Below, piece after piece: positions 1 through 21,439 of a stretch of 64,000 nucleotides of DNA. The notes under the pieces were generated by a model, which was given only the letters and a program-made list of their open reading frames with translations, had not been told where the DNA came from and did not search any database. Made by a program: the position numbers and the translations under genes. This DNA is from Deroplatys truncata (Eukaryota; Arthropoda; Insecta; Mantodea; Mantidae): positions 214,807,290 to 214,871,289 of the forward strand of contig CM060990.1 in the NCBI GenBank assembly GCA_030765065.1, given 5' to 3'. Within the stretch, counting starts at the first letter, position 1. Each line of letters opens with the position of its first letter.

Positions 1-1195
1 CAAAGACGTCAGCTAGAAGAAGTACATCCGAAGTTAAGTAGAGATCGCTGTACTCTCCCAGGTTTCTCACATTAAACAGCTCCCATACATTTCTAGCATG
101 ATCGTAGTCAGCATCAGTAATTTCTTCTTCATTTAATCTATTGTAGAAGGAGTCCTTAGGAGGCAAGCAGCTCTCGTTCAGGGCATCCCATGACGTAACA
201 AAATCATATGGAAATACACCCTTACGGGTCATCAACTTCAATTTGTCTTCTCCAAAGTACTTTAGCGTTTCAGGATACGAGGTTAGATTTTTTACCAACT
301 TATCCAAGCTTGTACTGAGGAATCGGAAGCTATCCACAAATCGAAGCTTTATATCTCCTACATACTTGGTGAATGAGATATAGCTTTCTTCAGAGTTAGG
401 AATTACCTCCACACGTTCACTTGTACAACCCAGCTCCTTAACAATGAAATGAGAGTCATATCCGCTAAGGTTATGCATGAAGACTGGTATATATTTAGGT
501 GTTTTACAGGCTAAATTACATTCATTATGAAGACTTCCACGATATTCACCGCTGATGTGATCATGGTCGCGTACTTTATAGTTCTCTTCTGTAAAGGGTT
601 TTCTACACAAGTAGCATGTCGTAGAAGACTCGAAATCCTTTTGCTGTTGATCCGTAAGTTTCAGAGGCTTAGCAGATTTGTATATATTACCAATCATTTT
701 TGCAAGAGATGTAAGGTACAGCATAAACGTCTGAGCAGCATCAGCACCACGATACACATAGGGATGCTTAGGAAGATCAGTTTCGAGATGTTCAACACTG
801 GATGTAGGTTTCACGTAAACACAGAAGCTCATTGGTGTGTGCTCTTGATAAGGTGTTGTATAGGAAGTTTCAGGATTGGGTGTACACGTATGGCATGGAG
901 TGAGAATACTCTCAAAATCCGCATAGATGACATAAGGTACTTTCAGCATCCTCTCAACATTTTTAAACTGTACAATTGATTTCTCCTTGGTAGGCATAAC
1001 TACCCTTGCAACACCATGTTGAATACAGACGGCTGCATGTTCTTGTAGTTTTTCCTGTCCACTTCGTCCATATCGATCATCAAAATGTGTAAAGCAGCGC
1101 TTACAAGTATAAACCCGTCCATTATGGTTAGTTTTCTGGCGTCGAACGAGTTTCTCAAAATTCCTTATATTCCTTAAGTTTTCCACTGCTATCAT
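1..1195 (-). CDS. polB: Family-B DNA polymerase, left-arm copy, cut by the window edge
   Basis: This is the mirror copy of the polymerase frame at 7049-9709, covering about its first 398 residues before the window ends. It includes the N-terminal zinc-binding motif, exonuclease motif I (YADFES), the endonuclease VII-like cysteine/histidine cluster, exonuclease motif II, and the YLTSD exonuclease III motif. Polymerase motifs A-C would lie outside the window. At least two substitutions separate it from the right copy near the edge. It overlaps the zinc-finger frame (1155-2183) by 41 nt in a different phase, exactly as on the right. Whether this copy is full length cannot be seen. Confidence 0.88.
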   Translation of the reverse strand, partial: MIAVENLRNIRNFEKLVRRQKTNHNGRVYTCKRCFTHFDDRYGRSGQEKLQEHAAVCIQHGVARVVMPTKEKSIVQFKNVERMLKVPYVIYADFESILTPCHTCTPNPETSYTTPYQEHTPMSFCVYVKPTSSVEHLETDLPKHPYVYRGADAAQTFMLYLTSLAKMIGNIYKSAKPLKLTDQQQKDFESSTTCYLCRKPFTEENYKVRDHDHISGEYRGSLHNECNLACKTPKYIPVFMHNLSGYDSHFIVKELGCTSERVEVIPNSEESYISFTKYVGDIKLRFVDSFRFLSTSLDKLVKNLTSYPETLKYFGEDKLKLMTRKGVFPYDFVTSWDALNESCLPPKDSFYNRLNEEEITDADYDHARNVWELFNVRNLGEYSDLYLTSDVLLLADVF

Positions 1196-2183
1196 TCAAT
1201 AGTAGCAGGTCGCGATGTTCAGGTAGTTCAATATCAGCAACCTTTATCGGATACACTTCATGCTTCTCATCCAACCCGAAAACGTTAATAGACATATTGT
1301 TAAACTTCTCAAATTTAGGTATTTGAGAAAGTGGAGTAGGGTAGGAAACACAGCTGAAGTCGTACTTGTCTTGAAGTTGTTTGTATTTGCTCACACGTTG
1401 CGCATCCTTCCCTATGAATTTAGCTAATATAGAGTACATGAAACATTTATCGTCGGTAAAGTTCTGAATGTTTATACACGCTTCTTTAGCTCCGACAGAT
1501 GACGGTAGTGGTATGTAGCTACTTCCTCGTAACGGGTTGTACTTGTTGATACGAAGTCGAACTCCTTCCACAGCAAGCAAAGCCCAGCTGCTACCCTTAA
1601 GCTGAGACTCCTCCATTTCAGTCACCAATTTCTTGAATTTCACTTCCATCGTTGACTCCAGATCAGTTTCCAGGAAAACAGCTTGATTCCGTGTTTTAAA
1701 TGTTTTGTCACAGGTTTCTCCAATACTGTTAACAAATCGACACTCAGCCAGCAGATTAATTTTAACACTCTTATGAATGCTAAGCTCTTTATGCACAGCC
1801 AGGATTATACGTTGTTTTGCCTCTTGCAGATACATATTTAGGTCCTTAGCTGATTCGCATCGTATAAAATACGATTTCAATCGTCCTTCGAATGAAGTTT
1901 CGTATTCTTTCATATCGCAGTCCTCCATTGTTGACAGCAACTGATGTTTAGTTGGCTCCAATCTTCTTTTCTTCTGAGGGCTGCTTATTTCACATATATC
2001 TTCGTGTCGCTGTCCCTTATAACAATCTTTGAAGGTTACATTACAATGTTTACATTTGAAGAGCTTCTTGCAGCTCATCTCGTGTCTTCTCTTGTCATAA
2101 CCTCGGAGGAACTTCTTCCCACATTTTCCGCATGCATATCCAGTAGCGCTTGGAATAATATCCTTATACGCTGAGTTATTCAT
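1155..2183 (-). CDS. C2HC zinc-finger protein (N-terminal part of PolB locus), left-arm copy
   Basis: This 342-residue frame is identical in translation to the right-arm copy at 6061-7089. It has two C-x2-C-x12-H-x3-C fingers in the first 64 residues, then a basic PQKKRRLEP stretch that looks like a nuclear localisation signal. The remaining region resembles the N-terminal part of the large arthropod and cnidarian PolB proteins. It is read leftwards, away from the palindrome axis, and ends 41 nt inside the polymerase frame. See the right-arm copy for the full description. Complete identity of 342 residues between arms implies very recent duplication or ongoing gene conversion. Confidence 0.85.
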   Translation of the reverse strand: MNNSAYKDIIPSATGYACGKCGKKFLRGYDKRRHEMSCKKLFKCKHCNVTFKDCYKGQRHEDICEISSPQKKRRLEPTKHQLLSTMEDCDMKEYETSFEGRLKSYFIRCESAKDLNMYLQEAKQRIILAVHKELSIHKSVKINLLAECRFVNSIGETCDKTFKTRNQAVFLETDLESTMEVKFKKLVTEMEESQLKGSSWALLAVEGVRLRINKYNPLRGSSYIPLPSSVGAKEACINIQNFTDDKCFMYSILAKFIGKDAQRVSKYKQLQDKYDFSCVSYPTPLSQIPKFEKFNNMSINVFGLDEKHEVYPIKVADIELPEHRDLLLLNDSSGKLKEYKEF

Positions 2184-2341
2184 CTTTATTCTTGATGTAA
2201 TAACGTATTAATCACTGATCAATGAAATGTAGACCTCTTCACCTTGACACCACTTTAGAAAGCTGATTATTCTTGGAGAGAACACGATGTTAACACCTCA
2301 AGACTAATTAGCACAATGAGGTCCAATGCCCTAGATCACCA

Positions 2342-2349
2342 TATTTATA
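2342..2349 (-). promoter_or_regulatory. TATA box of left-arm PolB locus
   Basis: TATAAATA on the minus strand, mirror image of 5895-5902 and about 160 nt upstream of the zinc-finger start codon. The mirrored CRE-like TGACGTCA lies at 2469-2476. Confidence 0.5.
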
Positions 2350-2843
2350 GAGGGAGCACGAACCTTTTAGATCAATCATAAACTCGCTCCATAACCACCT
2401 GTATATAATCGCTCAACGTGTACTAACCCCCCAGCCATATAACCTCAAGTCTAGAGACAGGATGTTTATGACGTCACACCCAGAGACAGGATGTCTGGCA
2501 GCATCAAACACGTTTAAACTCGTCTCATAACTACCTGCTTATGCTGTCACACCAGCAAGAGAAGTATTCCCACACGCTCATTCAGACATATATTTCAAAT
2601 TCAAGCCCACCACCACCATCACCACCTATTGTACCAAGGTTAATTCAAGCTGTATTATCACAATACTTAAAAGTAAAAGCTTAAAAGGAAACCTAGAAGA
2701 TTTTCCCCCTTATTTACTTAATTATTTCATGTTTTTATTCCCTTTTCAATTCTTCCTTTCCATCTTCTCACACAAAAACCATTACATTTCACTACAATCA
2801 TGAGAAAAGCAATTTTTCCAGGGTTACACAGATTCTAAGCTTC

Positions 2844-3957
2844 TAAATCGAACCCGGTAATACTTTTAATAAATGTATTTTAGCTCCCCAATATCAGCAT
2901 CTACCATTTAATCTTTACTCGAACCTGATATGATCCATAAGCTTGAAGATATATGAAATCACCCTTCGGGATTCGATCTGAGTACTTTAAAGTAATATTT
3001 GTCACGATAACGATATTTAAGGACTAGATACTCTTGTTTGCGTTTACCTTGACATGTTTATCTAAATTAAATTACGAGTTATTAAATTTTTGCAAGTAAA
3101 TTTCATTGAATCGGTATTCGAACCCAGAACACCAGGAACAGGATAATTTATAATATTAGTCTGACATGTTAAACAAAGTTGTATGCAGTTACATCATCGA
3201 TCTAAGTGATATATTCTAGTGTACAGAGGAAAATTAAGAAAGTCATTAAAAGATGGGGAATCGAACCAAGCACAACTGATTGACAATTATATACAGCATT
3301 AATCACCCATCATAGAAGCTATCAATCATGCTTTGCTACACTCCTCTACCTCACTTAGTTCCCGAGATAATGAAAATTTAAAAATTAAGGATCGAACCCA
3401 GGAAGTCAGGTATCTAATTACACATTTACAAGATACTACCTAATATCATAAACGCAATAAAGTTTATTTGGCGTCTTTATCTTAATTGGTTTAGGAGTTA
3501 TTAAATTTATAAGTAAATTCCATCGAATCAGTATTCGAACCCAGAACACCAAGAACAAAATAATTTATAATATGAGTTTGGTATGCTTAAAGGTGCTGTA
3601 TGTAGTTACAGCATCAATGTAACTGATATTTTCTAGAGTATAGAGTAAAATTAAGGAAGTCATTAAAAAATCGGGATTCGAACTAGAGACAACTGATTAA
3701 ACATTATATACAGTATTAATTACACATTATAACAGCTATCAAACATGCTTTGGTCCATTCATCTAGCTTTCTTAGTTTCCGAGATAATGAAGTTTTTAAA
3801 ATTAAGGATCGAACCCAGGACACCAGGTACCAAAATATACATCCACAAGAAACTAGCTAATGACATTAATGTAATCAAGTTTATTTGGCGTCTTTATCTT
3901 AATTAGTCTCTGAGTTATTAGAAGATGAATTTGCATTCACTCCTAGGATTCGAACCC
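2844..3957 (-). repeat. Left-arm copy of the GGTTCGA (B-box-like) array
   Basis: Mirror of 4287-5400. Reverse-complement motifs of the form GGATTCGAACCC recur every 131-147 bp, within units that repeat about every 417 bp. See the right-arm entry for the motif list. Confidence 0.8.
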
Positions 3958-4087
3958 AGGCATCCCGGTCAACTTGGAACAAGGTCCTAATGACGCGGCG
4001 CATTCCAAAGAATTGATTAGTTTTTATCCCATTGTTCTATCTCTTTTCATTCAGGAGATATAAGCGATTAAACAGTAGAAATAGAAT

Positions 4088-4156
4088 GGGCGGAGCTTGC
4101 CGGCATAGATCAAAGAACTTTATCAGATGTCGGCATCTCTGTGCGCTCAAACCGGT
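4088..4156. other. Palindrome apex: 69-bp non-symmetric segment with an internal imperfect hairpin
   Basis: The two arms stop pairing at 4087/4157. Inside, TGCCGGCAT (4098-4106) can pair with ATGTCGGCA (4127-4135), nine pairs including one G-T. Within that, GATcAAAG (4108-4115) pairs with CTTTATC (4118-4124) around an AA loop. The internal axis is offset about 5 bp from the palindrome axis, and 4088-4097 and 4136-4156 stay unpaired. The result is a long arm ending in an incompletely paired tip. Similar tips occur at hairpin telomeres of poxviruses, asfarviruses and parvoviruses; that parallel is inference only. Confidence 0.75.
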
Positions 4157-4286
4157 ATTCTATTTCTACTGTTTAATCGCTTATATCTCCTGAATGAAAA
4201 GAGATAGAACAATGGGATAAAAACTAATCAATTCTTTGGAATGCGCCGCGTCATTAGGACCTTGTTCCAAGTTGACCGGGATGCCT

Positions 4287-5400
4287 GGGTTCGAATCCTA
4301 GGAGTGAATGCAAATTCATCTTCTAATAACTCAGAGACTAATTAAGATAAAGACGCCAAATAAACTTTATTACATTAATGTCATTAGCTAGTTTCTTGTG
4401 GATGTATATTTTGGTACCTGGTGTCCTGGGTTCGATCCTTAATTTTAAAAACTTCATTATCTCGGAAACTAAGAAAGCTAGATGAATGGACCAAAGCATG
4501 TTTGATAGCTGTTATAATGTGTAATTAATACTGTATATAATGTTTAATCAGTTGTCTCTAGTTCGAATCCCGATTTTTTAATGACTTCCTTAATTTTACT
4601 CTATACTCTAGAAAATATCAGTTACATTGATGCTGTAACTACATACAGCACCTTTAAGCATACCAAACTCATATTATAAATTATTTTGTTCTTGGTGTTC
4701 TGGGTTCGAATACTGATTCGATGGAATTTACTTATAAATTTAATAACTCCTAAACCAATTAAGATAAAGACGCCAAATAAACTTTATTGCGTTTATGATA
4801 TTAGGTAGTATCTTGTAAATGTGTAATTAGATACCTGACTTCCTGGGTTCGATCCTTAATTTTTAAATTTTCATTATCTCGGGAACTAAGTGAGGTAGAG
4901 GAGTGTAGCAAAGCATGATTGATAGCTTCTATGATGGGTGATTAATGCTGTATATAATTGTCAATCAGTTGTGCTTGGTTCGATTCCCCATCTTTTAATG
5001 ACTTTCTTAATTTTCCTCTGTACACTAGAATATATCACTTAGATCGATGATGTAACTGCATACAACTTTGTTTAACATGTCAGACTAATATTATAAATTA
5101 TCCTGTTCCTGGTGTTCTGGGTTCGAATACCGATTCAATGAAATTTACTTGCAAAAATTTAATAACTCGTAATTTAATTTAGATAAACATGTCAAGGTAA
5201 ACGCAAACAAGAGTATCTAGTCCTTAAATATCGTTATCGTGACAAATATTACTTTAAAGTACTCAGATCGAATCCCGAAGGGTGATTTCATATATCTTCA
5301 AGCTTATGGATCATATCAGGTTCGAGTAAAGATTAAATGGTAGATGCTGATATTGGGGAGCTAAAATACATTTATTAAAAGTATTACCGGGTTCGATTTA
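4287..5400 (+). repeat. Array of tRNA T-arm / B-box-like GGTTCGA motifs, right arm
   Basis: Motifs of the form GGTTCGANTCC occur near 4288, 4429, 4560, 4703, 4846, 4977, 5120, 5267 (degenerate), 5319 and 5390. The first eight are spaced 141, 131, 143, 143, 131, 143 and 147 bp, a three-motif higher-order unit of about 417 bp. Flanking blocks also repeat, such as GATAAAGACGCCAAATAAAC near 4347 and 4763. GGTTCGANTCC matches the Pol III B box / tRNA T-arm consensus, but no cloverleaf or A box at normal spacing was found, so these are not tRNA genes. They could bind TFIIIC, act as iterons, or be remnants of a tRNA-derived repeat. Confidence 0.82.
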
Positions 5401-5749
5401 GAAGCTTAGAATCTGTGTAACTCTGGAAAAATTGCTTTTCTCATGATTGTAGTGAAATGTAATGGTCTTTGTGTGAGAAGATGGAAAGGAAGAATTGAAA
5501 AGGGAATAAAAACATGAAATAATTAAGTAAATAAGGGGGAAAATCTTCTAGGTTTCCTTTTAAGCTTTTACTTTTAAGTATTGTGATAATACAGCTTGAA
5601 TTAACCTTGGTACAATAGGTGGTGATGGTGGTGGTGGGCTTGAATTTGAAATATATGTCTGAATGAGCGTGTGGGAATACTTCTCTTGCTGGTGTGACAG
5701 CATAAGCAGGTAGTTATGAGACGAGTTTAAACGCGTTTGATGCTGCCAG

Positions 5750-5902
5750 ACATCCTGTCTCTGGGTGTGACGTCATAAACATCCTGTCTCTAGACTTGAG
5801 GTTATATGGCTGGGGGGTTAGTACACGTTGAGCGATCATATACAGGTGGTTATGGAGCGAGTTTATGATTGATCTAAAAGGTTCGTGCTCCCTCTATAAA
5901 TA
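5750..5902 (+). promoter_or_regulatory. Likely Pol II promoter of the PolB locus: CRE site, direct repeat, TATA box
   Basis: A direct repeat CATCCTGTCTCT occurs at 5751-5762 and 5780-5791, bracketing a perfect CRE/AP-1-type TGACGTCA at 5768-5775. A TATA box TATAAATA lies at 5895-5902, about 160 nt upstream of the ATG at 6061. The whole arrangement is mirrored at 2342-2494. Its function is inferred from motif and position only. Confidence 0.5.
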
Positions 5903-6060
5903 TGGTGATCTAGGGCATTGGACTTCATTGTGCTAATTAGTCTTGAGGTGTTAACATCGTGTTCTCTCCAAGAATAATCAGCTTTCTAAAGTGGTGTCAA
6001 GGTGAAGAGGTCTACATTTCATTGATCAGTGATTAATACGTTATTACATCAAGAATAAAG

Positions 6061-7089
6061 ATGAATAACTCAGCGTATAAGGATATTATTCCAAGCGCTA
6101 CTGGATATGCATGCGGAAAATGTGGGAAGAAGTTCCTCCGAGGTTATGACAAGAGAAGACACGAGATGAGCTGCAAGAAGCTCTTCAAATGTAAACATTG
6201 TAATGTAACCTTCAAAGATTGTTATAAGGGACAGCGACACGAAGATATATGTGAAATAAGCAGCCCTCAGAAGAAAAGAAGATTGGAGCCAACTAAACAT
6301 CAGTTGCTGTCAACAATGGAGGACTGCGATATGAAAGAATACGAAACTTCATTCGAAGGACGATTGAAATCGTATTTTATACGATGCGAATCAGCTAAGG
6401 ACCTAAATATGTATCTGCAAGAGGCAAAACAACGTATAATCCTGGCTGTGCATAAAGAGCTTAGCATTCATAAGAGTGTTAAAATTAATCTGCTGGCTGA
6501 GTGTCGATTTGTTAACAGTATTGGAGAAACCTGTGACAAAACATTTAAAACACGGAATCAAGCTGTTTTCCTGGAAACTGATCTGGAGTCAACGATGGAA
6601 GTGAAATTCAAGAAATTGGTGACTGAAATGGAGGAGTCTCAGCTTAAGGGTAGCAGCTGGGCTTTGCTTGCTGTGGAAGGAGTTCGACTTCGTATCAACA
6701 AGTACAACCCGTTACGAGGAAGTAGCTACATACCACTACCGTCATCTGTCGGAGCTAAAGAAGCGTGTATAAACATTCAGAACTTTACCGACGATAAATG
6801 TTTCATGTACTCTATATTAGCTAAATTCATAGGGAAGGATGCGCAACGTGTGAGCAAATACAAACAACTTCAAGACAAGTACGACTTCAGCTGTGTTTCC
6901 TACCCTACTCCACTTTCTCAAATACCTAAATTTGAGAAGTTTAACAATATGTCTATTAACGTTTTCGGGTTGGATGAGAAGCATGAAGTGTATCCGATAA
7001 AGGTTGCTGATATTGAACTACCTGAACATCGCGACCTGCTACTATTGAATGATAGCAGTGGAAAACTTAAGGAATATAAGGAATTTTGA
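6061..7089 (+). CDS. C2HC zinc-finger protein forming the N-terminal part of the PolB locus
   Basis: This 342-residue frame has two C-x2-C-x12-H-x3-C zinc fingers (C18, C21, H34, C38 and C44, C47, H60, C64). A basic stretch at about residues 69-77 (PQKKRRLEP) is a plausible nuclear localisation signal. The downstream region contains NPLRGSSYIPLP and an NNMSINVFG block, which resemble the N-terminal segment of large metazoan PolB proteins of the Polinton/adintovirus type, where finger and polymerase regions lie in one chain. Here the frame stops 41 nt after the polymerase frame opens, in a different phase. The break is a +1 change near 7084-7089, shared with the left arm. This could be a fixed mutation, a programmed frameshift, or two separate proteins. 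A TATA box lies about 160 nt upstream, and the ATG is the first in frame. Confidence 0.87.
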   Translation: MNNSAYKDIIPSATGYACGKCGKKFLRGYDKRRHEMSCKKLFKCKHCNVTFKDCYKGQRHEDICEISSPQKKRRLEPTKHQLLSTMEDCDMKEYETSFEGRLKSYFIRCESAKDLNMYLQEAKQRIILAVHKELSIHKSVKINLLAECRFVNSIGETCDKTFKTRNQAVFLETDLESTMEVKFKKLVTEMEESQLKGSSWALLAVEGVRLRINKYNPLRGSSYIPLPSSVGAKEACINIQNFTDDKCFMYSILAKFIGKDAQRVSKYKQLQDKYDFSCVSYPTPLSQIPKFEKFNNMSINVFGLDEKHEVYPIKVADIELPEHRDLLLLNDSSGKLKEYKEF

Positions 7090-9709
7090 GAAACTCGTTC
7101 GACGCCAGAAAACTAACCATAATGGACGGGTTTATACTTGTAAGCGCTGCTTTACACATTTTGATGATCGATATGGACGAAGTGGACAGGAAAAACTACA
7201 AGAACATGCAGCCGTCTGTATTCAACATGGTGTTGCAAGGGTAGTTATGCCTACCAAGGAGAAATCAATTGTACAGTTTAAAAATGTTGAGAGGATGCTG
7301 AAAGTACCTTATGTCATCTATGCGGATTTTGAGAGTATTCTCACTCCATGCCATACGTGTACACCCAATCCTGAAACTTCCTATACAACACCTTATCAAG
7401 AGCACACACCAATGAGCTTCTGTGTTTACGTGAAACCTACATCCAGTGTTGAACATCTCGAAACTGATCTTCCTAAGCATCCCTATGTGTATCGTGGTGC
7501 TGATGCTGCTCAGACGTTTATGCTGTACCTTACATCTCTTGCAAAAATGATTGGTAATATATACAAATCTGCTAAGCCTCTGAAACTTACGGATCAACAG
7601 CAAAAGGATTTCGAGTCTTCTACGACATGCTACTTGTGTAGAAAACCCTTTACAGAAGAGAACTATAAAGTACGCGACCATGATCACATCAGCGGTGAAT
7701 ATCGTGGAAGTCTTCATAATGAATGTAATTTAGCCTGTAAAACACCTAAATATATACCAGTCTTCATGCATAACCTTAGCGGATATGACTCTCATTTCAT
7801 TGTTAAGGAGCTGGGTTGTACAAGTGAACGTGTGGAGGTAATTCCTAACTCTGAAGAAAGCTATATCTCATTCACCAAGTATGTAGGAGATATAAAGCTT
7901 CGATTTGTGGATAGCTTCCGATTCCTCAGTACAAGCTTGGATAAGTTGGTAAAAAATCTAACCTCGTATCCTGAAACGCTAAAGTACTTTGGAGAAGACA
8001 AATTGAAGTTGATGACCCGTAAGGGTGTATTTCCATATGATTTTGTTACGTCATGGGATGCCCTGAACGAGAGCTGCTTGCCTCCTAAGGACTCCTTCTA
8101 CAATAGATTAAATGAAGAAGAAATTACTGATGCTGACTACGATCATGCTAGAAATGTATGGGAGCTGTTTAATGTGAGAAACCTGGGAGAGTACAGCGAT
8201 CTCTACTTAACTTCGGATGTACTTCTCCTAGCTGATGTCTTTGAGACGTTCAGAGAGCAAACCCTTAAAACACACAAAGTTGATCCTGCCCATTATTTTA
8301 CCTCTCCAGGTCTTACATGGGACGCCATGTTGCTGTATACTGGAATTAAGCTGGAACTGTTACAAGATTATGATCAACTACTCATGGTGGAATCAGGTAT
8401 AAGAGGAGGTTTATGCCAAGTTTCTCATCGGTATGCTGAGGCTAATAACACTTATATGGAGAAGTTTGATCCGACGAGACCAACCCAATTTATCACATAC
8501 GAGGACGCAAATAACCAATATGGGTGGGCAATGTGTCACGCCCTTCCTTTTGGTGGATTTCAGTGGGTGTCACCTGAAGAAATCAACTTAGAAACACTAC
8601 AAGAAGATGATCCTCATGGGTACATATTAGAAGTCGACATCGAGTATCCTGCAGAACTTCACGATCTACACAACGATCTACCTTTCCTGCCAGAGTGTAT
8701 GAAACCATTGGAATCATCTACAAAGAAACTGATACCTCATCTTGGACCTCGAAAGAAGTATGTAGTGCATTACATGGCTTTGAAGCAAGCTCTTAGTCAT
8801 GGACTACGACTAACAAAAATCCATCGTGTGCTACAATTCCGACAGTCTCAGTGGTTGAAACCTTATGTGGAATTTAACAACAGGCTACGACAACAAGCTG
8901 CAAATGATTTCGAGAAGGATCTCTACAAACTCTTTAACAACGCTATGTTTGGAAAAACTATGGAGAACCTGCGTAATCGTATGGATATACGACTGGTGAC
9001 CAATGAAAAAACTCTAGAGAAGCTGATCGCCAAGCCTACGTTTATCGACAGGACGATATATGCTGATAATCTAGCTGCTGTACATATGGCCTCTCGTCAG
9101 ATTGTATTCAAGAAGCCTATATACATTGGTATGAGTGTGTTGGACATCTCCAAGACATTAATGTATAACTATCATTACGACGTTTTGTTGCCTTATTATG
9201 GAGCTGAAAACCTGAAGCTTATGTATATGGACACTGATTCGTTCATTCATCGTGTAACAACTGAAGATGTGTACCAGGACAAGCTACGTTTTCTTGAACA
9301 TCTCGATACAGCTGATTACCCTGCCAACCATATATGTTACTCTACTCAGAACAAGAAGGTATTGGGAAAATTTAAAGATGAGGCTAATAGCAAAATCATC
9401 CTACGCTTTGTTGGACTACGTCCTAAGATGTATGCCTTAGATATTCAAGGGTCAATGATAAAAAAGATTAAAGGTATAAAACGTAGCGCTATTAAGCAGT
9501 ACATTTCGTTTGACAGCTATACAGACTGTCTTAAAACCAGTGAAATCATCAGAACACCTATGAATCTGATCCTATCACGAAAGCATGCCCTTGCTACAGT
9601 ACAAGTGAATAAAATTGCATTGACTCCGTTTGATGATAAAAGAATTATTGCTGAGGACGGGATAACAACATATGCGTATGGACATTACGCCATTACAAAC
9701 AGTGCTTAA
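7049..9709 (+). CDS. polB: Family-B DNA polymerase (Polinton/adintovirus-like, probably protein-primed)
   Basis: This 886-residue frame has no internal stop. Visible in order: a C/H zinc-binding cluster (C31, C34, H53, C57); exonuclease I motif YADFES (D93, E95); an endonuclease VII-like cluster CYLC...DHDH...NECN (residues 194-230); exonuclease II HNLSGYD (N242, D247); exonuclease III YLTSD (Y386, D390); polymerase motif A EDANNQYG (D486); motif B KLFNNAMFGK (K627-K636); motif C YMDTDS (D728, D730); and a KMY motif (793-795). All catalytic acidic residues are present, so the enzyme looks recently functional. Related polymerases copy linear double-stranded DNA from a terminal protein in the nucleus; protein priming is inferred from family, since no terminal-protein domain was identified. 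The ATG at 7049 may not be a genuine start, because the frame is probably entered from the upstream zinc-finger frame. An AATAAA lies about 200 nt downstream. Confidence 0.93.
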   Translation: MIAVENLRNIRNFEKLVRRQKTNHNGRVYTCKRCFTHFDDRYGRSGQEKLQEHAAVCIQHGVARVVMPTKEKSIVQFKNVERMLKVPYVIYADFESILTPCHTCTPNPETSYTTPYQEHTPMSFCVYVKPTSSVEHLETDLPKHPYVYRGADAAQTFMLYLTSLAKMIGNIYKSAKPLKLTDQQQKDFESSTTCYLCRKPFTEENYKVRDHDHISGEYRGSLHNECNLACKTPKYIPVFMHNLSGYDSHFIVKELGCTSERVEVIPNSEESYISFTKYVGDIKLRFVDSFRFLSTSLDKLVKNLTSYPETLKYFGEDKLKLMTRKGVFPYDFVTSWDALNESCLPPKDSFYNRLNEEEITDADYDHARNVWELFNVRNLGEYSDLYLTSDVLLLADVFETFREQTLKTHKVDPAHYFTSPGLTWDAMLLYTGIKLELLQDYDQLLMVESGIRGGLCQVSHRYAEANNTYMEKFDPTRPTQFITYEDANNQYGWAMCHALPFGGFQWVSPEEINLETLQEDDPHGYILEVDIEYPAELHDLHNDLPFLPECMKPLESSTKKLIPHLGPRKKYVVHYMALKQALSHGLRLTKIHRVLQFRQSQWLKPYVEFNNRLRQQAANDFEKDLYKLFNNAMFGKTMENLRNRMDIRLVTNEKTLEKLIAKPTFIDRTIYADNLAAVHMASRQIVFKKPIYIGMSVLDISKTLMYNYHYDVLLPYYGAENLKLMYMDTDSFIHRVTTEDVYQDKLRFLEHLDTADYPANHICYSTQNKKVLGKFKDEANSKIILRFVGLRPKMYALDIQGSMIKKIKGIKRSAIKQYISFDSYTDCLKTSEIIRTPMNLILSRKHALATVQVNKIALTPFDDKRIIAEDGITTYAYGHYAITNSA

Positions 9710-10134
9710 AAGAATGTAAGTTAAAGATAAAGATTTTCTAGTGAGTCTACAATCTTAAAAAAGAAGGTATCTGTGTGCTGTATATGCAGATAGCTGACGC
9801 CTGATGAAGAAAGAAGAAGATGGAAGGGAAGGTGGTAACCCTGCCATTAGGAGCAATCCTAGTGCTAGTCTCAAGCCTAGATAAAAGGGGAGAGGCATCT
9901 ATAACGAACTAAAATAAAGGTATGTTGACGTAAAGCTTTTCAGTTTGTGAACCAATATGCAGTTTATCCCTCTCCGCATCGTACAATAAGTGTTTAACAT
10001 ATAATAAGTTTGTAAGATTTAGAAAAAAGTATATAAATTGTTGTAACGTTGGATGAGAAAAGTTTTATAATCGAATTACTCTCTATATTACCATGAGTAC
10101 CTGTGATACTAGTTGAATTGCCTGTTAAAATGAC
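9710..10134 (+). other. 3' flank of PolB with polyadenylation signal
   Basis: AATAAA at 9913-9918 is a candidate poly(A) signal for the polymerase. No other coding potential is seen. The outer border of the PolB element cannot be placed because its left partner is outside the window. Confidence 0.45.
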
Positions 10135-11180
10135 TTAAATACCTGTGATACTACCCGAATCGTGTGAAATTACATTAAATAGCTCAGATACGAATTCCTG
10201 CTCTAAATTAGTACGAGCACCTGTGATACTATCAGAATTGCCTATTAAAATGACTCAAATACCATTGATACAACCTGAATCAGCTGCATTTACCTTAAAT
10301 AGCCGTGATACAAAATCTCTGATCGAAATTATTACGAGCGTCTGTGAAACTATGCTGATTATCCAAATACTTATGATATTACCTGAACTATCTGTAAAAT
10401 ACGAAACTAGGCTATAACCAACCCCTGGAACCTACCCTCCTGTAATGCTTGCTTAATTACTCTAAGCATCTATGTTACTTGAATTATCATAAATACCTAC
10501 GATACCCTCTGAATTACCTTGAAATATGAAACTATGCTATACCCAACCCTGGAATCTAGCCTCCTGTGATACTACCTGAATTAGCCTAAATACCTACGGT
10601 ACTAGCTGAATTAGCTGTGAAATCATGCATAGCTATGATGCAGTTAGCCTCTGGAATCTAGCCTCCTGTGATACTAGCTGAATTAGCTTAAATGCTCACG
10701 ATACTAGCTGAATTGGCTATGAAAATGATTTAAATACCTGTGATACTACCCGAATCATGTGAAATTACCTTAACTAGCTCTGATACGAATTCCTGCTCTA
10801 AATTAGCACGAGCACCTGTGATGCTATCTGAATTACCTGTTAAAATGACTCAAATACCATTGATACAACCTGAATCATCTGCATTTACCTTAAATAGCTG
10901 TGATACAAATCTCTGATCGAAATTATCAATAATATCTGTGAAGCTCTGTCGATTACCTCAAATACTTACGATATTACCTGAACTATCTGTGAAATACGAA
11001 GCTAGGTTATAACCAACCCCTGAAACCTACCCTCCTGTAATGCTTGCTTAATTACTCTAAACACCTATGTTACTTGAATTATCCTAAATACCTACGATAC
11101 CCTCTGAATTACCTTGAAATATGAAACTATGCTATACCCAACCCTGGAATCTAGCCTCCTGTGATACTACCTGAATTACT
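10135..11180 (+). repeat. Degenerate tandem repeat, 'gatacta-ctgaatta' type, with a 595-bp duplication
   Basis: Short units built on CCTGTGATACTACCTGAATTA recur throughout. A larger block at 10135-10580 is repeated at 10730-11177 (offset 595 bp) with modest divergence. Frames read here have no coding character. Confidence 0.8.
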
Positions 11181-11204
11181 TACCTGTTAGTGTTAGTGGG
11201 TTAG

Positions 11205-11392
11205 CTTTTCCCGTTGCAGGTCACCTTTTTCCCTTTGGTGGTCGCCTTTTTTCCCTTTGCTGGTGACATTTTTCCCTTTGCTGGTCACGTTTTTCCCTTT
11301 GCTAGTCAACTTTTTCCCTTTGTGGGCCTCCTTTTTCCCTGAGCAGTCACCTTTTTCCCCTGAACGAGTCACCTTTTCCCTGAATAGGTTAC
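11205..11392 (+). repeat. Minisatellite of TTTTTCCCTTTGCTGGTCAC units
   Basis: About eight imperfect units of 20-24 bp with the core CTTTTTCCCTTTG followed by a variable GGTCA segment. Confidence 0.85.
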
Positions 11393-11472
11393 GTGATGGG
11401 CATGTCTAGAATTAGCGTTCTAACATTGACATGAAACAGTTTTCCACTAAGTTCACGTCTAAAGTCGCTTTC

Positions 11473-12230
11473 AAGTCTAGCCCTCCTATTCCCTATCTCT
11501 CCTGTATATAAGTCCATATTCCTACTGCTACACTACCTGTCTAGCCTAACACCTCTTCTCCTGTTCCTATACCTCTCATATAAACCATACTCTATTCCTC
11601 TAGCTCTGTCTAGCCTAACGCCTCTCTCGTTTACCCATGACTCTCACATAAACCATACTCTGCTCCTCGACCTCTGTCTAGTCTAACTCCTCTCCTCGTT
11701 TTCCTATACCACTCATATAAACCATACATTACTCAGCATCTGTCTAGCCTAACACCTCTTCTCCTGTTCCTATACCTCTCATATAAACCATACTCTACTC
11801 CTCGACTTCTGTCTAGCCTAACACCTTTCCTCGTTTTCCTATATCTCTCACATAAACCATACTCTGCTCCTCAACCTCTGTCTAGTCTAACTCCTCTCCT
11901 CGTTTTCCTATACCACTCATATAAACCATGCACTACGTTTCAAGCCTCTGTCTAGTCTAACACCTCCCCTCGTTTTCCTATACCTCTCATATAAACTATA
12001 CTCTACTCAGCCTCTGTCTAGCCTAGCACCTCCCCTCGTATTCCCTATCTTTCTCATATAAAGCGCACTCCCCTCCTACCACTGTCTAGCCTAGCGTCAG
12101 TCCTCGTATTCCCTATCTCTCCCATATAAACGCATTTTCCTCCTTGAACCGTCGCATCTAGCCTCGTTTTCCCTATCCTTTCCCATATAAACGCAAAAAA
12201 CTGCGCTCGATCTCTCCTATATATCCTACT
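11473..12230 (+). repeat. ~65-bp tandem array with a CATATAAA box in each unit
   Basis: About eleven units containing CTGTCTAGCCTAACACCTC, then CTCGTTTTCCTATACC and CTCATATAAACCATACT. The unit size varies around 65 bp, and divergence rises toward the right end. The repeated CATATAAAC resembles a TATA box, but nothing shows promoter activity. Confidence 0.85.
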
Positions 12231-12377
12231 GGTGTCACTAGAGATAACCATGTCCTGCTATCATTATGTTCATAGAAATCGTTCATGGGTGCAGCCGTTG
12301 TTTAAATCAGGGATTGCTATTTTGAGTACCTGTGTCCTGCAAACTGACTTCCAGCACTCCTTATGTTTTCCAGCAGT

Positions 12378-13504: not shown

Positions 13505-13540
13505 AGTAGAAATAAAAGGAGAGAGCTGGCTCAAAAACAC

Positions 13541-13760
13541 GTGTTAACACGTGCTAAATACGCCTAATCCGCTAATGACCGTCACTAATGACATGTTTAA
13601 TGGATATGTGTGGTAATACATATGTAAACGCTAATGACCGGCGCTAATGACACGTCTAATGGATATGCGTGGTAATACATATGTAACCGCTAATGACTGG
13701 CGCTAATGACCCGTCTAATGGATATGTGTGGTAATACATATGTAATCCGTAATATGTAAT
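13541..13760 (+). repeat. Left subterminal ~67-bp tandem repeats after an E-box palindrome
   Basis: The perfect palindrome CACGTGTTAACACGTG begins the block. It is followed by three units of CGCTAATGAC...GTCTAATGGATATGTGTGGTAATACATATGTAA type. The inverse block lies at 32980-33180. Confidence 0.8.
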
Positions 13761-13969
13761 GAACACCGCTAATGGTACGTCTATTGGACACACGCGAGAT
13801 ACTGCTACAGAGTGTTTATCATAAACAGCGGTGTGGGATAATTGTGTACGAGTATCAATAAGATAAAGCAGATAAGGGCGATAAAAGGAATAATTGAACA
13901 GAGTATCGAACTCTGACTAACATCATCATTCTGGGTAGGCGTGATATTAGCGATATTCCCAGTAAAAGA

Positions 13970-14252
13970 GACCCTTGGTATAAACCATATGAGTAACGAA
14001 ACCTGGTATTGAACCTCGGAGTATTATTACGTTATTCGCAGTAACAAACCCTGGTATCTAAACTAGGATGTGCGTTATACGCAGTAACGAACCCCTTGGT
14101 ATAAAGCATATGATTAACGAAAACTGGTATTGAACCTAGATGTGATATGTGCGATATTCGCAGTAACGAACCTCTTGGTATAAAACATATGAGTAACGAG
14201 CCCTGGTATCGAGCCCAAGATGAGCGATACTCGCAGTAACGAAAACCTTGGT
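13970..14252 (+). repeat. Left ~80-bp subterminal array (outer part)
   Basis: Units read TTGGTATAAAGCATATGAGT, then AACGAACCCTGGTATCGAACC, then a GCGATATTCGCAGTAACGAA segment. The array is split by the LINE and continues at 20152. Each unit holds a TATAAA and an inverse GGTTCGATA motif. Confidence 0.85.
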
Positions 14253-14561
14253 GATGATGATGAGGTGGGGCTTAAGAGCGCTCAACTGCTAAGCTTATTA
14301 GCGCCGTTACTATGTGTAAAATATAAAATGTAAAAGTAAAAAAATTAAAAAACCGCACACAAACCGCTTGGTCAAAAACACTGAATAACACAACAGAGCA
14401 AACACTAAGATCTACACACTAAAATCATGGTCAACAAGAGAATAAAACAACGTGTCAAGAACTGTAGAATGCGAGGGACACGAGCGCCAGATGTCCACTG
14501 GGGAGGAGTGCCCCCATTAAAAGATAATGTAAAATTAAACAGCTAAATGGCGCTCAGCGCA

Positions 14562-17500
14562 TCAAATGCGACGGCTAAAACCAATTATAGTGGCAAAACG
14601 TAAAAGACATTCTACAGCATGCGCGTCGTCTACCAAAACGTTGGCTAGGCCAACAGGCAGACCAACACGAACGCGCAACAGAGATAAAACTTGACACTCT
14701 GCTAAAATGTGACGCACCATTAAAGGCGCATCACACTGCGCACAGAGTGGTGCGAGGTCACCACTGAGCAGGTATTTATGGCTAAAACACAATGTCCAAT
14801 TCGTAGACGAGCTAAAAGCACCTCTGCCCGACGGGAAGAACGAGAAGAGGTACCCCAGACTAACGGGAGAGGTTTAACCTTCCGCAAATTGTTCCCCCTA
14901 AGAGCCGCCCACTCATCGCGCCAGCGCGAGAGGATACTCCAACGTAAAATAACATAAAAATCTGAGGAAGGAACAACACAGGTAAAACATCTGGGTGATA
15001 AAATGGCCGATTTGGCAGCGGCGTCGATAGACTCCTTGCCCGAGCTGCCCACATGACCTGGAATCCACACGGAGGAGACGCTGATGCCAGAAGCACCAAG
15101 CGAGTGGAGCAGGTCATGAATGCGCTGTACGAGTGGGTGGTAACTGTACAGCGCGTGAAAATCCTGAAGGGCACTCAGAAAGTCCGTACAAACAACACAG
15201 CGCCGTAAGACGTGCCGCTGAATGTATAAAACACATTGATATATACTAAAACGTTCGGCGGTATAAATCGAAAATTGTCCAGGTAAACGAACAGTAAAAC
15301 TCTGTGCACCAAAAACAAAGGCATATCCTACTCCAATATCAGTCTTAGACCCATCAGCATATATAAAATGACAGTCCCCGACCTCCGCCAGTAGTTCTAA
15401 AAAAAGCGGATCTAAGGACGAAAGCAGGGGTCTCATTTTTCGACATCGACGTAAACCCAAGGTGACAGTGGGCCTCAGCGCGCAACCATGGAGGAAAACT
15501 CGTTTCCCCCCGTGGAAGGGCCGGAATGCCGTAACGTCCAAATACCGAAGAAGTTGAGGAAATCGAACCGCTGTAAGGAACAGGGCAGAGGAGCTAACTA
15601 AATATTGCCGATCAAGCGAATCCTCGTAAAATATCGCGAAGGACGGGTGGTCAGGCAAGCTGGAGAGTCGACAGGCATAGCTGCACAAGAGCATCTCACG
15701 CCTGAAGGACAGCGGAGGATCTGCAGCTTCAGCATATAGGCTAGGTACAGGGCTGGTTGTAAAGGCCCCTGTAGCGACTCTTATGCCAATATGGTGTATG
15801 GTATTCAATCGACGTAATACAGATGGACGCGCCGACGAATAGACAATGCACCGGAATCAAGCTTGGATCCAACCAAAAGAGCGATAAAGGCGAAGAAGGA
15901 CGGTCCGATCAGCTCCCCAGGATGTACCACTTAAAACACAAAAAAGATTAACAGAACGGTCACACTTTGCTTTTAAAAAGGAAATGTGCGAAGTCCAACA
16001 CACCTTCCTATCCAAAATCAAACCCAAACATTTCACCTCGTATGCAAATTGAAGCATCTCCGGCCCAAGATAGAGAGAGGGCGGAGGGAAATATTTCCGG
16101 CGCCAGAAGTTGATGCAAATGTATGTTTAGGCGGAGAAATTAAAGGCGTTAGCATTACTCCAGGCCTAGAGACGGTCGATACAACTCTGGAGACGGCGTT
16201 CGAGTAGACAAGTCCGACGCAAACTGCAATAAATGGCAAATCGTCAACAAAAAGGGACGATGAAATGCCAGGTGGAATACAATCAACAATGGGGTTGATA
16301 GCAATTGCAAAAGACTGGGTACAGAGCCTTGCGGTATTCCTTCTCTTGAATGAAACGACTAGATAAAACTGAGACCACACGTACACAAAAGACGCGATCC
16401 GTCATAAACTCCCGAAGAAATATGGGACGACGACCGCGGAAATTCCATGCATGGAGTGTACGCAAAATGCCGCCCTCCAGCAAGTGTCATAACCTTTCTC
16501 TAGGTCAAAAAATACAGCCGCTGTTTGACACTTTCTCAGAAATCCGTTCATAATATGCGTCGACAGAGACACCAGATGGTCAAAAGCGATGGCGACAAAT
16601 CCACACTGAGCGTTCGCCAGAAGTTTCTGAGACTCAAGCCACCAATTCAACCCCCCGTTGATCATGCGCTTCATCACCTTGCAAACGCAACTGGTGAGGG
16701 AGATACGGCGGTAGCTGGAAGGTAGTTGGCGATCCTTACCAGGCTTAAGTATCGGACAATGGTGGCCTCGCGCCGAACGGAAGGAAAAAGGCCGTCCTGC
16801 CAAATACGATTATAGACCCGTAAAAGAAAGCGCTTACTGTCGGCTGAAAGGTTCTTTAACAGCAGAACATGAATGCCATCCGGCCCAGGAGCGGAGTGCC
16901 TAGAGCAATGAAGAGCGTGCTCCAGCTCCCTCATTGTAAAAAGGGCATTGTAACATTCCGTATTAGCAGACCGAAAAGTATAGGTTGCGTAATCCAGCCG
17001 GTCTTTGATACAGCAAAAGCCGACGGAATAATGGTCTGAACTGGAAACCGCCTCAAAGGCAGCACACAGAGTGTTAGCGATGGCAGCCGGATCCACTATG
17101 GTGGCATTGGAAACCTGAAGGCCAGAAACAGTACAATGCGACACTTTACCTGAGAAGCGACGAAGTTTATACCAAACAAGAGATGAAGGCGTAAAGCGAT
17201 TAAAAGACTCGGCAAAACGAGTCCACGACGCCTTCTTGCTATTCTGAATAATGCGACGAGCCCTGGTGCGCGATTGTTTAAAAGTCACCAAATTATAAGT
17301 GTAGGGTGGCGCCGAAACACCCTAAGCGCAGTCCTACGATCACGAAAAGCGTCCCGACAATCCTCGTTCCACCACGGAACAGGAATACGCCGAGGGTGAG
17401 AGGACGATCGGGGAATTGTGTGTTCGGCGGCAGATAGAATCGCAGACGAAAGGTACTGCACCATTTGGTTAACGTTAGTGAAGGGCTGGTCCGCAAAAGA

Positions 17501-18224
17501 CACGAAGCTGGAATACAATCTCCAATCGGCTTTTCTGAATATCCAGGTAGGTACTCTGGAATGCTGGACGTGGTGAGATAGAACAGAAACGACGCAGGGG
17601 TAATGGTCGCTGGAGTAGGTGTCAGCGACGACGTTCCACTGCGGACGACGAGCAAGCTGGTGTGAGCAAACGGCTAGGTCCAGGTGAGAGAATGTACCAG
17701 AACAATCAGAAATAAAAGTAGGTTTTACCGGTATTGAGGATGGAGAGATTGAATTGGTAAAAAGGTCGAAAAGAACTGTTCCCCTCGCGTAAGCCCTTGG
17801 CGAACCCTACAGGGGGTGATGGGCATTAAAATCTCCCAACAAAAGAAATGGTGTTGGGAGAGCGGACAGGAGATCTCGAATGTCCGCGGGAGCAGGGGGG
17901 ACGATGGAGGTGAATACACAGAGGAAACAGAAAAGAAAAAACCGGGTAACTGCGGTCTAATGGCAACAGCTCGCAAGTCGGACGTTGAAAATGAACGTCG
18001 TTACGCACTAACAACATGACACCTCCATGAGCAGGAGTACCCTCATCCAGTTCAAGATCGTAGCGAACCGGAGTATATCCTCGGAGATCAAAAGGATCGT
18101 GACGGCGAAGCTTAGTCTCCTGCAAACACACGACCATAGGCGAATGGGAACGCAATAAAAGTTGCAGTTCCGCCCTATGCCATCGTAAACCACGTACATT
18201 CCAGGTCAGGATAGCCATTAACAA
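14562..18224 (-). pseudogene. LINE ORF2: endonuclease, reverse transcriptase, RNase H (broken)
   Basis: It starts 13 nt after the ORF1 stop with an APE-type endonuclease (TWNVRGL, then LQETK). Reverse transcriptase pieces follow: APGPDGI near 16890, KPGKDRQLPSSYRRISLTS near 16740, and the catalytic block altered to FVDD near 16235 (normally YADD-like). RNase H lies at about 15350-15000 (IYADGSKTD, then WIPGHVGS near 15060). A terminal C-x2-C...H...C zinc motif (CAQCDAPLMVRHILAEC) lies near 14700. Several frameshifts split it into frames of 60-360 residues, and a stop interrupts the zinc region near 14720. About 1,220 codons overall, a normal length for this family. Confidence 0.88.
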
Positions 18225-18239
18225 AAAGGGATAAACTGT

Positions 18240-19527
18240 CTACTTAAAAGGGCGGCTTGAAGTTACCTTTTGTTTAACCTTTGGGCTTGGGCCTTTGGTA
18301 TGGAGTTGGTCAGCCTCCATAGCCTCCTCGAAGGGCGGGCCCACGCGCTCAGAGCCAGAAACCGATTCAAGCGCCGAGAATCGGCTTTCGGTTGCGATGG
18401 GTGAGGGGTGCCGCTGATCGCGGCTTGTCCCAGGAGCTTCCTGGGACTGCGACCTCCGAGGAGGAGAAGGTGAACCTTTCTTACCGCGCGCACGCTGAGG
18501 GTCCTTCAGAAAATCTTCCCTTCCAGGTTTCTGCTGTGGTTTCTTTCCAGCGGCTTGCGACTTCAGGTCCTTGGGACCAGCTTTAGATGGCTTGCTAACT
18601 ATAGCAGAAATAAACGGCCGGAAGTTAGTGGCGGTTAATGCAGTCATGGTCCAGATCTGAGTTTCGGCATCTACTCGTGGTACTGGCGAGGCAACAACCG
18701 AACTAAATGTGCCAGATCGCAGGAGCAAAGGTTGGCGCGCATGGTAACGCCTCCGGGCTTCGGCGAAGGAGAGTTTCTGCTATACCCGGATCTCCTGGAT
18801 CGCCTTCTCGTCCAAGTACGACGGACAGTCCGCAAACGACGCAGAATGAGACCCTTTGCAGTTAACGCAGACGGGGGCTGTAAAACAGGTATCTTAGTGT
18901 GACGACTGGCTACATCAGGCACAGATGGTAACGTCACTCTTACAGGCGGCTTGCGTATGCCCAAAACGTTGGCATTTAAAACAACGCAGATGTCTAGGAA
19001 TATAATCCCTCACCGCAATGCGTTCGTACCCTGCTGAAATGTTTGTGGTCAGATCGACGCCATCAAATGTTATAAACAGGGTACAAGTGGGTACCAATAC
19101 TCCGTCGCGTTTGGCCTTGCATCCGATGCACTGCTGTCACTTTTTGATCTGATAGATATTTGACTAGGTCCTCGTCCGATATACCGTCGAGGCTATGGGT
19201 GATAACGACGCCTCGACAGGAATTCTAGGTGCGGTGCTTCTCAACACGGATGGGATAACCGTGGAGAAGCGTAGCGCTCAACAAGGTCTTTGTTTGTTGA
19301 TCGAACTTGCTGTGTGCTAATAATGACCCGTTTCGAAGGCGAGTGCAGGACTGAACCGCACCAGCAATAGCATCAATGCCTTTTTGAATGATTAAAGGGT
19401 TCACCTTCTCTAACCTTTGCCCTTCTTCGGTTCGTGAAATGACCAAGTAACAACCAGTTGTCGGTGGTGTCACTGCTGTTACATAAACTTTTCGGCTTGT
19501 TGGTATTAACGGAAAAGGGTGCTCCAT
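18240..19527 (-). pseudogene. LINE ORF1: CCHC zinc-knuckle RNA-binding protein (broken)
   Basis: The N-terminal frame (to about 19225) resembles the I-element ORF1 domain, ending at one in-frame stop after KHRT. Downstream the frame contains a CCHC knuckle CFKCQRFGHTQAAC near 18970, followed by a basic, proline- and serine-rich tail ending at 18240. Related proteins coat LINE RNA. The start is taken at the ATG at 19527 because homology begins there. Frameshifts near 19130 and 18880 separate the pieces. ORF2 begins 13 nt beyond the stop. Confidence 0.8.
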
Positions 19528-20151
19528 AGCGAAATAAATCCTCCACCATTGCAACCGTCTCCGTCCTCGGGCTCTGACTTCCCGGGCGTTACCCCGGCTT
19601 GGGTGAGTGGCCTATCTATACCGATCTCACCCCAGGGTCACACCTCCCAGAACATAGACAGAGGGACCCAATCGCCGTCAGAAGTCAGCAGCTCATGCAA
19701 TGCCCCCCGCGGGAGTGCAGTTGAACAGCGGATTCGAACACAAACCCTAAATGACGACCCCGGGTGGTGGGGATGACGCCATTACCCACTCACCCAGCCC
19801 GGCATCTCGTACGCGGGTATCCGTCAGGCTGTGTCCATGGAGGATTAAAAGAAAAGCTTAAAAGGAACTAAAAGTGTGTGGGCGTTTCGCACTCAAGGTA
19901 TGCCGGCGAAGAAGGAAAAGAGATGTGTAAATGAATGGACGTGGTGCGAAATGTGCATAAATAGAAGAGAGAATAAAGAAACGATGGCGAGAGCGTCATG
20001 GAATGAAATGCTCAGAACGCACGAGAGCCTACCTTGAGTTCCCCAGTCACGAGAACGAACACACCTCGACCGGACGGGGATGAAGCGATGAAGATGGCGA
20101 TGACTGGCTCGGGAATCCCCGGGTACGCCAAAACCCGTACTCACATAAACT

Positions 20152-20335
20152 CCTTGGTATAAAGCATATGAGTAACGAACCCTGGTATCGAACCTAGATG
20201 TGATGTGTGCGATATTCGCAGTAACGAACCTCTTGGTATAAAGCATATGAGTAACGAGCCCTGGTGTCGAACCCAGGATGAGCGATATTCGCAGTAACGA
20301 ACCCCTTGGTATAAAGTATATGAGTGATATGAATG
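20152..20335 (+). repeat. Left ~80-bp subterminal array (inner continuation)
   Basis: Three further GGTATAAAGCATATGAG units directly after the LINE, continuing the array of 13970-14252. An additional pair of units lies at 21310-21440. Confidence 0.85.
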
Positions 20336-20409
20336 ATGTTCCAGGTGCAGTAAAAAAACCTCAACGCTTGTATGAATGATTCCAAACGAAAATGAAACAG
20401 CATTCGAGG

Positions 20410-20995
20410 TGGCTACATATCACTCGAACCGAAGACTGGTGTAAATCATGCAAGTCTGACTATGGAAATTTATAGAATAGCGATTAGCGCTCTGTTCATG
20501 AAAAACAAACGTCAGAGTTTCGCTCTGGTAATGTACTGAACAAACAATCTCACTTAGTGAAGTGACAATATCTGTGGACAGAGTCGATATGTAGGTCACC
20601 ACTTAGCATGTAAATGGCGCTCTAGATACGGAGAGTGCTAACTAATGTATGAACACAAGACTGACATTGCTTAGACGTAATAACAATAACAAATATAACG
20701 AGAGACAGTGTAACTCTTACGAATGTAGGTCACCGGCGTCCAATGTGAATACATTATACACTCTCGAGGGAAAAATGGCTATTAGTGCTCTATTCATGAA
20801 AAAAACCGTCAGACGTTCGCTCTGGTAATGTAATGAACAAACAATCTCACTTAGCGAAGTGACAATATCTGTGGACAGAGCCGATATGTAGGTCATCACT
20901 TAGCATGGAAATAGCGCTCTAGATACGGAGAGTGCAAACTAATGTATGAACACGAGACTGAAATTGCTTAGACGTAATAACAATAATTAAACGCT
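20410..20995 (+). repeat. Two ~297-bp direct repeats, left arm
   Basis: Blocks at about 20420-20697 and 20717-20994 share AGGTCACCACTTAGCATG, the GCGCTCTAGATACGGAGAGTGC segment and CTTAGACGTAATAACAATAA. The inverse pair is at 31855-32405. Frames are conserved only because the DNA repeats; no domain is seen. Confidence 0.8.
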
Positions 20996-21439
20996 ACTCT
21001 TCGATCGATGAATACGATTAAGTATTTTTTGATTAATGTAAATAAGTATACATGAATTGCCACGCGCGCCTGGTTGCCATAATATATGTGTGTGAGGGTG
21101 TTAAGACGATTATTACGCGTGTATAATTATTACAACTAATAACACATGTGGAAATGCCGAGAGAGAAACTCTTAAGATCGCCCTCCGACCTCCCTCCTAA
21201 ATCATTGGTCGCGTGGTATTGTGAATACCGAAGATCTTTCCTCCCTAAATCATTGGTCGCGTGCTTTAAACCGATAAGGGGGGCTATAAAAGAATGATTG
21301 AACGAGTAACGAGCTCTCTTGGTATAAAGCATATGAGTAACGAACCAGGATATCGAACCCAGGAGTGATATGAGCGATATTCGCAGTAACGAGCCCCCTT
21401 GGTATAAAGCATATGAGTAACGAACCCTGATATCGAACA

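Follow-up and report, generated by a model that had tools for sequence, protein, structure and literature searches.

A dispersed family of giant palindromic elements carrying an adintovirus-type PolB gene in a mantis genome

Why should a PolB gene lie twice, head to head, in two almost identical inverted arms? The question is raised by a 64,000-nucleotide stretch of the genome of the mantis Deroplatys truncata (NCBI GenBank assembly GCA_030765065.1, contig CM060990.1, positions 214,807,290 to 214,871,289 of the forward strand; hereafter the window, with coordinates counted from its first letter), which lies inside a 707-Mb contig, termed C16 here, of the 4.29-Gb genome. A sequence-only reading of the window had described a giant, almost perfect palindrome with a PolB locus in each arm, and had proposed either an inverted dimer of a linear, hairpin-ended replicon or a distinct class of self-replicating element. 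We find that the palindrome is part of a complete element, E1, with dispersed palindromic relatives in the same genome, and consider it likely that E1 is a copy of an amplified, Polinton/adintovirus-like palindromic family that arose by snap-back of a linear genome, passes through a hairpin cycle and obtains its integrase from relatives.

The core of the palindrome is as the sequence-only reading had it. Comparison of the window sequence with itself gave inverted arms at 1–4087 and 4157–8243 with 8 mismatches and no indels, separated by a non-palindromic spacer of 69 nucleotides (nt) at 4088–4156; seven of the mismatches are transitions, and the two in coding sequence are both silent. The extent had been misjudged: instead of arms of about 4.1 kb and an element end at 9918 (the end of an AATAAA), each arm measures about 8.07 kb and the element runs from −3986 to 12230. 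Its right end (12206–12230, minus strand; read inwards, AGTAGGATATATAGGAGAGATCGAG) was first spotted from the end of a second element in the window, E2, as a similar sequence, reversed, at 12230. That likeness alone would be poor evidence, with 16 of 22 positions matching ungapped, a level that chance also reaches on the opposite strand, and a pattern search missed 12230. The left end was forecast from symmetry at −3986 (a rougher earlier guess was −3994), and the value was written down before the flank was fetched; the end lay exactly there (C16:214803303), preceded by GGTGTC, the 6-mer that also follows 12230 (12231–12236, plus strand). E1 is therefore bordered by a target duplication and is an inverted repeat from end to end, 16,217 bp (16.2 kb) long, of which 12,230 bp fall inside the window (1–12230): the inner portion of the left arm (1–4087, minus strand), the spacer and the complete right arm (4157–12230, plus strand).

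E1 is not alone. Candidates in the genome searches were scored in part, so that counts are lower bounds and the copies sampled are those closest to the window. An arm query (1–3900) gave 41 matches at at least 22 loci (40 of 4891 candidates scored; loci grouped by hand). Both arms were among the listed matches at 19 of the 22 loci; the distance between them was equal within a few nucleotides at 16 (two allowing for a match that stops short), and the centre was shorter at three (C13 at 47.6 Mb, C16 at 666 Mb and C1 at 255.0 Mb). The 245-nt centre matched over its full length at 40 of 40 places scored, the most window-like of 1607 candidates, and a 331-nt terminal query at at least 40 places (40 scored of 2677). 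The exact 25-nt end of E1 occurs at 249 places (124 forward, 125 reverse), a control sequence at none; the first 100 of these places comprise 47 convergent pairs and 6 singles, with lengths of 7.9–21.3 kb (median, 16,994 bp). Nine more loci with the same axis were fetched on both flanks, making ten copies with that of the window. Eight of the nine have both ends, each bordered by its own perfect 6-bp duplication (GTTACT, TACATC, AATGCA, CCCATG, GCTGCC, TACTCT, CTTATG and AGCACC, the last copy with 4 mismatches in its ends), and the ninth, on C10, showed no end within 5 mismatches. Identical 6-mers thus flank nine of the ten palindromic copies, the window's included, and all nine 6-mers are different. 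Arms are 8.07–9.15 kb long across palindromic copies, and the outer ends of the copies examined read AGTAGG...CCTACT. Most family members, of those paired or fetched, are whole palindromes of about 16–18 kb, and this family of ~17,000-base elements probably numbers about a hundred copies or more. Two checks that the sequence-only reading had put forward—outer ends with a target duplication, and further copies with the same axis in this genome—were borne out.

Each arm carries PolB-type frames in outward orientation, as had been described. By frames, Pfam and homologue alignment, the N-terminal part (342 amino acids (aa), with weak zinc-finger matches) occupies 6061–7089 on the plus strand (mirror, 1155–2183) and the main part (886 aa, with a PF02945 endonuclease VII-like stretch) 7049–9709, also plus (mirror, 2–1195, cut by the window). 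The polymerase motifs, as described earlier, are intact in the alignment, but the gene of the window copy is split into these two overlapping frames, identically in both arms, and lacks at their join a short stretch conserved in homologues. Elsewhere the gene is unbroken: four other palindromic copies (right arm) and a single-arm copy each carry PolB as one frame of 1217 aa. Programmed frameshifting at the join was rejected for the window copy (no canonical −1 site by eye, the conserved stretch gone, other copies whole). A protein search with E1 PolB yielded 3469 relatives among 8000 candidates scored; the top ones align over almost the entire query at 53–57% identity, partial ones reach 72%, and relatives spanning at least 95% of the query among the 120 listed are 44–57% identical. 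Identity to PolB of a Ladona dragonfly adintovirus is 48%. The single E1 protein found no relative in phage records and viral contigs; an alignment-based query found one viral contig (L001), with an rve integrase, an A32-like ATPase and a single-frame PolB 39% identical to that of E1. Comparison with solved structures gave nothing useful. Homology makes a strong case that E1 PolB is of the adintovirus type.

Other adintovirus-type genes were met at other loci. In E1, searches for integrase, ATPase and capsid genes came back empty, both with Pfam (120 window frames beyond 9700) and with tblastn (ten L001 proteins; hexon was looked for by these two routes), and the right arms of four other copies hold no further frame of at least 150 aa except one antisense to PolB. 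Across the genome we found at least 38 matches to A32-type packaging ATPases (150 scored of 1207) and at least 129 to integrase (129 scored of 9144; 26–33% identical to the query, many in 309-aa frames), and the two lie within ~5 kb of each other at four places. One of the four was fetched, an adintovirus-like provirus that is not a palindrome (L031–L032, C11:190106500–190119999); it encodes integrase, A32 ATPase, PLA2/adenovirus-PX and double-jelly-roll proteins and adjoins a long array of E1's 417-bp repeats (~84%) and 69-bp repeats (~73–82%); it was rejected as a full provirus, its PolB being reduced. Since E1 has no integrase that we could find, a PolB-less copy (L033) has a matching duplication, and integrase and ATPase genes occur elsewhere, E1 is likely to be a satellite served in trans, which suggests satellite–helper relations among endogenous adintoviruses. 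Of the proposed distinct class of self-replicating element, the distinct, amplified palindromic family stands; the self-sufficiency does not sit well with the missing integrase and the likely service in trans.

The most serious rival goes further, and makes E1 a passive, non-autonomous palindrome that fuller adintoviruses both replicate and integrate, with PolB as a passenger. The failure to find integrase or capsid genes, L033 and the split PolB of the window copy all suit such a satellite, and we give it a substantial minority share of our belief. Against it, the 1217-aa frame is kept in five of five other PolB-bearing copies (one arm each), which argues that PolB was maintained until recently.

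The axis bears on how such a palindrome could arise. Around the spacer, inward-facing terminus-like sequences form a module, AGTAG...CTACT (97 nt at 4074–4170 in the window), that recurs at 97–100 nt, both ends inward, in nine of the ten copies, those readable on both sides. The loop core is common to all ten copies and one loop side is variable; a spacer hairpin was considered and rejected, the internal stem being weak (fold z-score, −1.44; 13 of 200 shuffles fold as well). In the copies on C1 and C4, the right side of the axis, read inwards, is AGTAGAAATAAAATGAGAGAGCTGGC; the C1 sequence is identical to the real left end of E2 at 26 of 28 positions, and this buried E2-like end joined to the palindromic flank has 37 exact occurrences in the genome. 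Because a buried terminus is the expected leftover of a folded-back 3′ end that primes itself, the axis suggests an origin by snap-back self-priming. The module might instead be a nested mini-element with inverted ends, given that it starts with AGTAG and finishes with CTACT, but we think this unlikely: the 6-mers that flank it form no direct repeat, and its position is precisely that of the axis, with a perfect palindrome to either side.

Within a copy, the arms are more alike than arms of different copies generally are. Comparing arm with arm over ~4.51 kb gave 7 (window copy), 9, 1, 0, 3, 3, 0, 4, 4 and 0 (C10) differences, that is, 0–0.2%, and right arms diverge between copies by up to 2.06%. 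The C10 copy is the clearest case, its arms identical and 1.6–2.1% away from all other copies. The window copy has 4510 bases in both arms over the test stretch, against 4514–4516 in 18 other arms, so that a private change sits in both of its arms; we infer that this change is the split of the PolB gene. The arms in most copies have been copied from each other; exceptions are given below. Deletions are symmetric too. Eight loci match the arm query only from position 733, and in the six with both arms listed both stop there; two short palindromic copies lack PolB in both arms, L034 with the same two breakpoints in each arm (arms 99.7% alike) and L033 with arms whose mutual alignment takes up nearly all of the copy (98.6%) between copies of the duplication CTCTTA. 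Flanking 6-mers match in two of three short copies. One copy, L029 (C2:7021800–7030450), retains a single arm plus the spacer and a stub, flanked by TCTGTC left and right, and is perhaps the product of cutting a folded hairpin; the break points in its arm sequence nearly coincide (4498/4505).

Low divergence within copies is also predicted by a local inverted duplication whose arms chromosomal gene conversion keeps similar, as happens on sex chromosomes. As the origin, this is refuted by the dispersal of copies that have target duplications of their own, and the arms of E2 are down to ~87–94% identity, one of them alone being interrupted; conversion therefore does not keep arms alike for ever, and although it may contribute in E1, we rate the explanation as very improbable. 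An assembly or library artefact has next to no credibility: palindromes assembled from fold-back reads are a known artefact type and the window begins within an arm, but it lies inside the 707-Mb contig, the left end was where forecast with a matching duplication, copies with a common axis are dispersed, and the copy-specific duplications at both outer ends, with the genome-wide counts of ends, exclude artefact and local duplication alike—neither a fold-back chimaera nor the lack of a second arm elsewhere, the outcomes named beforehand as fatal, is what was found. Chance insertion of two ordinary single-PolB elements head to head, in a genome where integrase-type elements abound, can be dismissed just as firmly, as it is refuted: one and the same centre recurs at the 40 best-scored loci, all ten compared copies have a common loop core, the duplications border the outer ends and the deletions are symmetric.

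The account that we favour, a palindromic family of snap-back origin, would start from a linear genome of the Polinton/adintovirus type, or from one derived from it by deletion. Its 3′ end (...TATTTCTACT) would fold onto an internal AGTAGAAATA situated fewer than 100 nt upstream and prime its own synthesis. Copying of the self-primed strand to the other end would give an inverted dimer in which both ends are identical and carry an origin while the former terminus lies buried at the axis, and this palindrome would from then on be the replicating unit. PolB, its own or that of a relative, would copy the palindrome from its identical ends; displaced strands would snap back into full-length hairpins, in which differences between the arms could be corrected, so that new insertions would carry matching arms; and insertion, with a 6-bp duplication, would be the work of a Polinton-type integrase encoded by relatives elsewhere in this genome. 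The inverted dimer of a linear replicon proposed earlier is well supported by the outer 6-bp duplications, the common axis and loop core, the buried terminus and the homogenized arms in most copies. On a bolder version—a self-complementary linear DNA parasite of Polinton/adintovirus descent, a hairpin-cycling inverted dimer with only its own polymerase and an integrase borrowed from its relatives, which spins off polymerase-less palindromic satellites—our belief is evenly divided.

Several observations pull the other way. The E2-like end is present at the axis in only two of the nine readable copies (C1 and C4); in the rest the top of the stem is altered, differently between copies yet pairing within each copy, save two on C16 (C16_90 and C16_30) that are not fully paired. 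The spacers of the nine fetched copies score only 54–60 of 69 against that of the window. A monomer with the true B-end was not found, the genome-wide count of that end never having been obtained. Two copies on C5 share identical right arms although in one of these copies left and right arm differ at 4 sites, the copies on C1 and C13 are 0.13% apart whereas the arms of C1 are 0.20% apart, and gene conversion after insertion could also make arms equal. L034 has unequal flanking 6-mers (TATGTT/CATCGA). As for helpers, PolB at the C11 locus is only ~160 aa long, the stretches fetched there contain no E1-type end with 5 or fewer mismatches, and we saw no integrase-bearing element with an E1 end; the putative dependence on a foreign integrase is argued from the 6-bp duplication and from integrase genes that are 26–33% identical to the query.

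Two further loci may indicate that the route was taken more than once. By comparison of repeats and flanks, E2 (13505–33212) is an older element, the second in the window; it has giant inverted repeats, starts with AGTAG at either end and is flanked by the duplication AATGGG. Its arms (13505–14252 and 20147–25196 against 27476–33212) are 87–94% alike around a centre of ~2.3 kb, which indicates that chromosomal arms diverge with time, and its family has at least 70 matches from the 40 candidates scored out of 3452; several form inverted pairs, and C16 holds the majority of the listed ones. A GC-richer insert at 14252–20147, probably a retroelement, interrupts the left arm only and may be the source of the RVT_1, Exo_endo_phos and RNase_H matches in the window; 19322–20147 matches 63189–63996, inverted. 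In the right arm only, a 124-bp segment (28417–28540) resembles ~30 PolB residues (E ~1e-4); its reading as a PolB relic was rejected. Another palindrome (L030, C72:157800–167700), a single locus on a 1.65-Mb contig, has arms of more than 4 kb that are 98–100% alike around a 401-nt centre; each arm holds one integrase and one 270-aa frame, and pieces of PolB lie outside the arms. Its ends were sought by scanning the stretch fetched, in which no E1-type end was found. With the one pattern used, no terminus-like motif was found at the centre of E2 or of the C72 palindrome. The C72 locus implies that there may have been more than one origin of inverted dimers, and together with E2 it hints that this route is a recurrent one among adintovirus lineages.

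E1 is also rich in repeats. A 417-bp tandem repeat (2.1 copies; 4324–5187, plus strand; mirror, 3057–3920) contains GGTTCGA-type motifs, which we take to be B-box-like, and subterminal tandem repeats with units of ~120, 21 and 69 bp occupy 10072–12131. The motif occurs 64 times in the window against 17 expected, 22 of the 64 inside the palindrome, with a spacing of 131–143 nt in the 417-bp arrays (3057–5187). Scans of the window for tRNAs and with Rfam gave no matches, and a role of the arrays in binding a pol III factor or as an origin is possible.

These elements suggest that virus-like Polinton/adintovirus elements can become self-complementary satellites that keep spreading. Instability is the expectation for palindromes this large; in this genome, nevertheless, one serves as the unit of spread, with 249 exact ends counted. 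If the arms are alike at insertion, their divergence would date each insertion, much as paired long terminal repeats do. With the buried terminus, one can test by what route protein-primed linear genomes yield inverted dimers, an old question, and likewise whether Polintons replicate as free linear DNA.

A literature search turned up no palindromic Polinton family named in titles or abstract openings, and the nearest known systems each share part of the architecture. Mavericks, as described for vertebrates in PMC8097293, are marked by a 6-bp duplication and AGT-type ends (most commonly 5′-(AGT)2//(ACT)2-3′), with terminal inverted repeats of 46–1,447 bp in intact elements. E1 resembles these Polintons/Mavericks in its 6-bp duplication, PolB, total size (16–18 kb) and ends, AGTAGG...CCTACT being one base off the (AGT)2 motif; it differs in that its inverted repeat is the whole element rather than short repeats around a unique middle, and in that we found no integrase, ATPase or capsid gene in it. 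The adintovirus group is defined in PMC11071296 by integrase and hexon. PolB relates E1 to Adintoviridae (48% identity to the Ladona virus, 39% to L001), whereas neither integrase nor hexon was found in E1 and its PolB lies twice in a palindrome. Fold-back of linear genomes yields duplicated ends or inverted dimers in other viruses as well, as in the symmetrical defective genomes of adenoviruses, reportedly described by Daniell in 1976, and in the hairpin self-priming of parvoviruses. Those are products of replication, however, and the E1 palindromes are a dispersed, integrated family; as for a defective inverted-duplication genome, the identical ends and the buried end of E1 fit, and the parent was not found. 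Foldback and other DNA transposons with long terminal inverted repeats share with E1 the very long inverted repeats, but E1 stands apart from them by its PolB, its Polinton-like ends, its 6-bp duplications and arms that are near-perfect over their full length.
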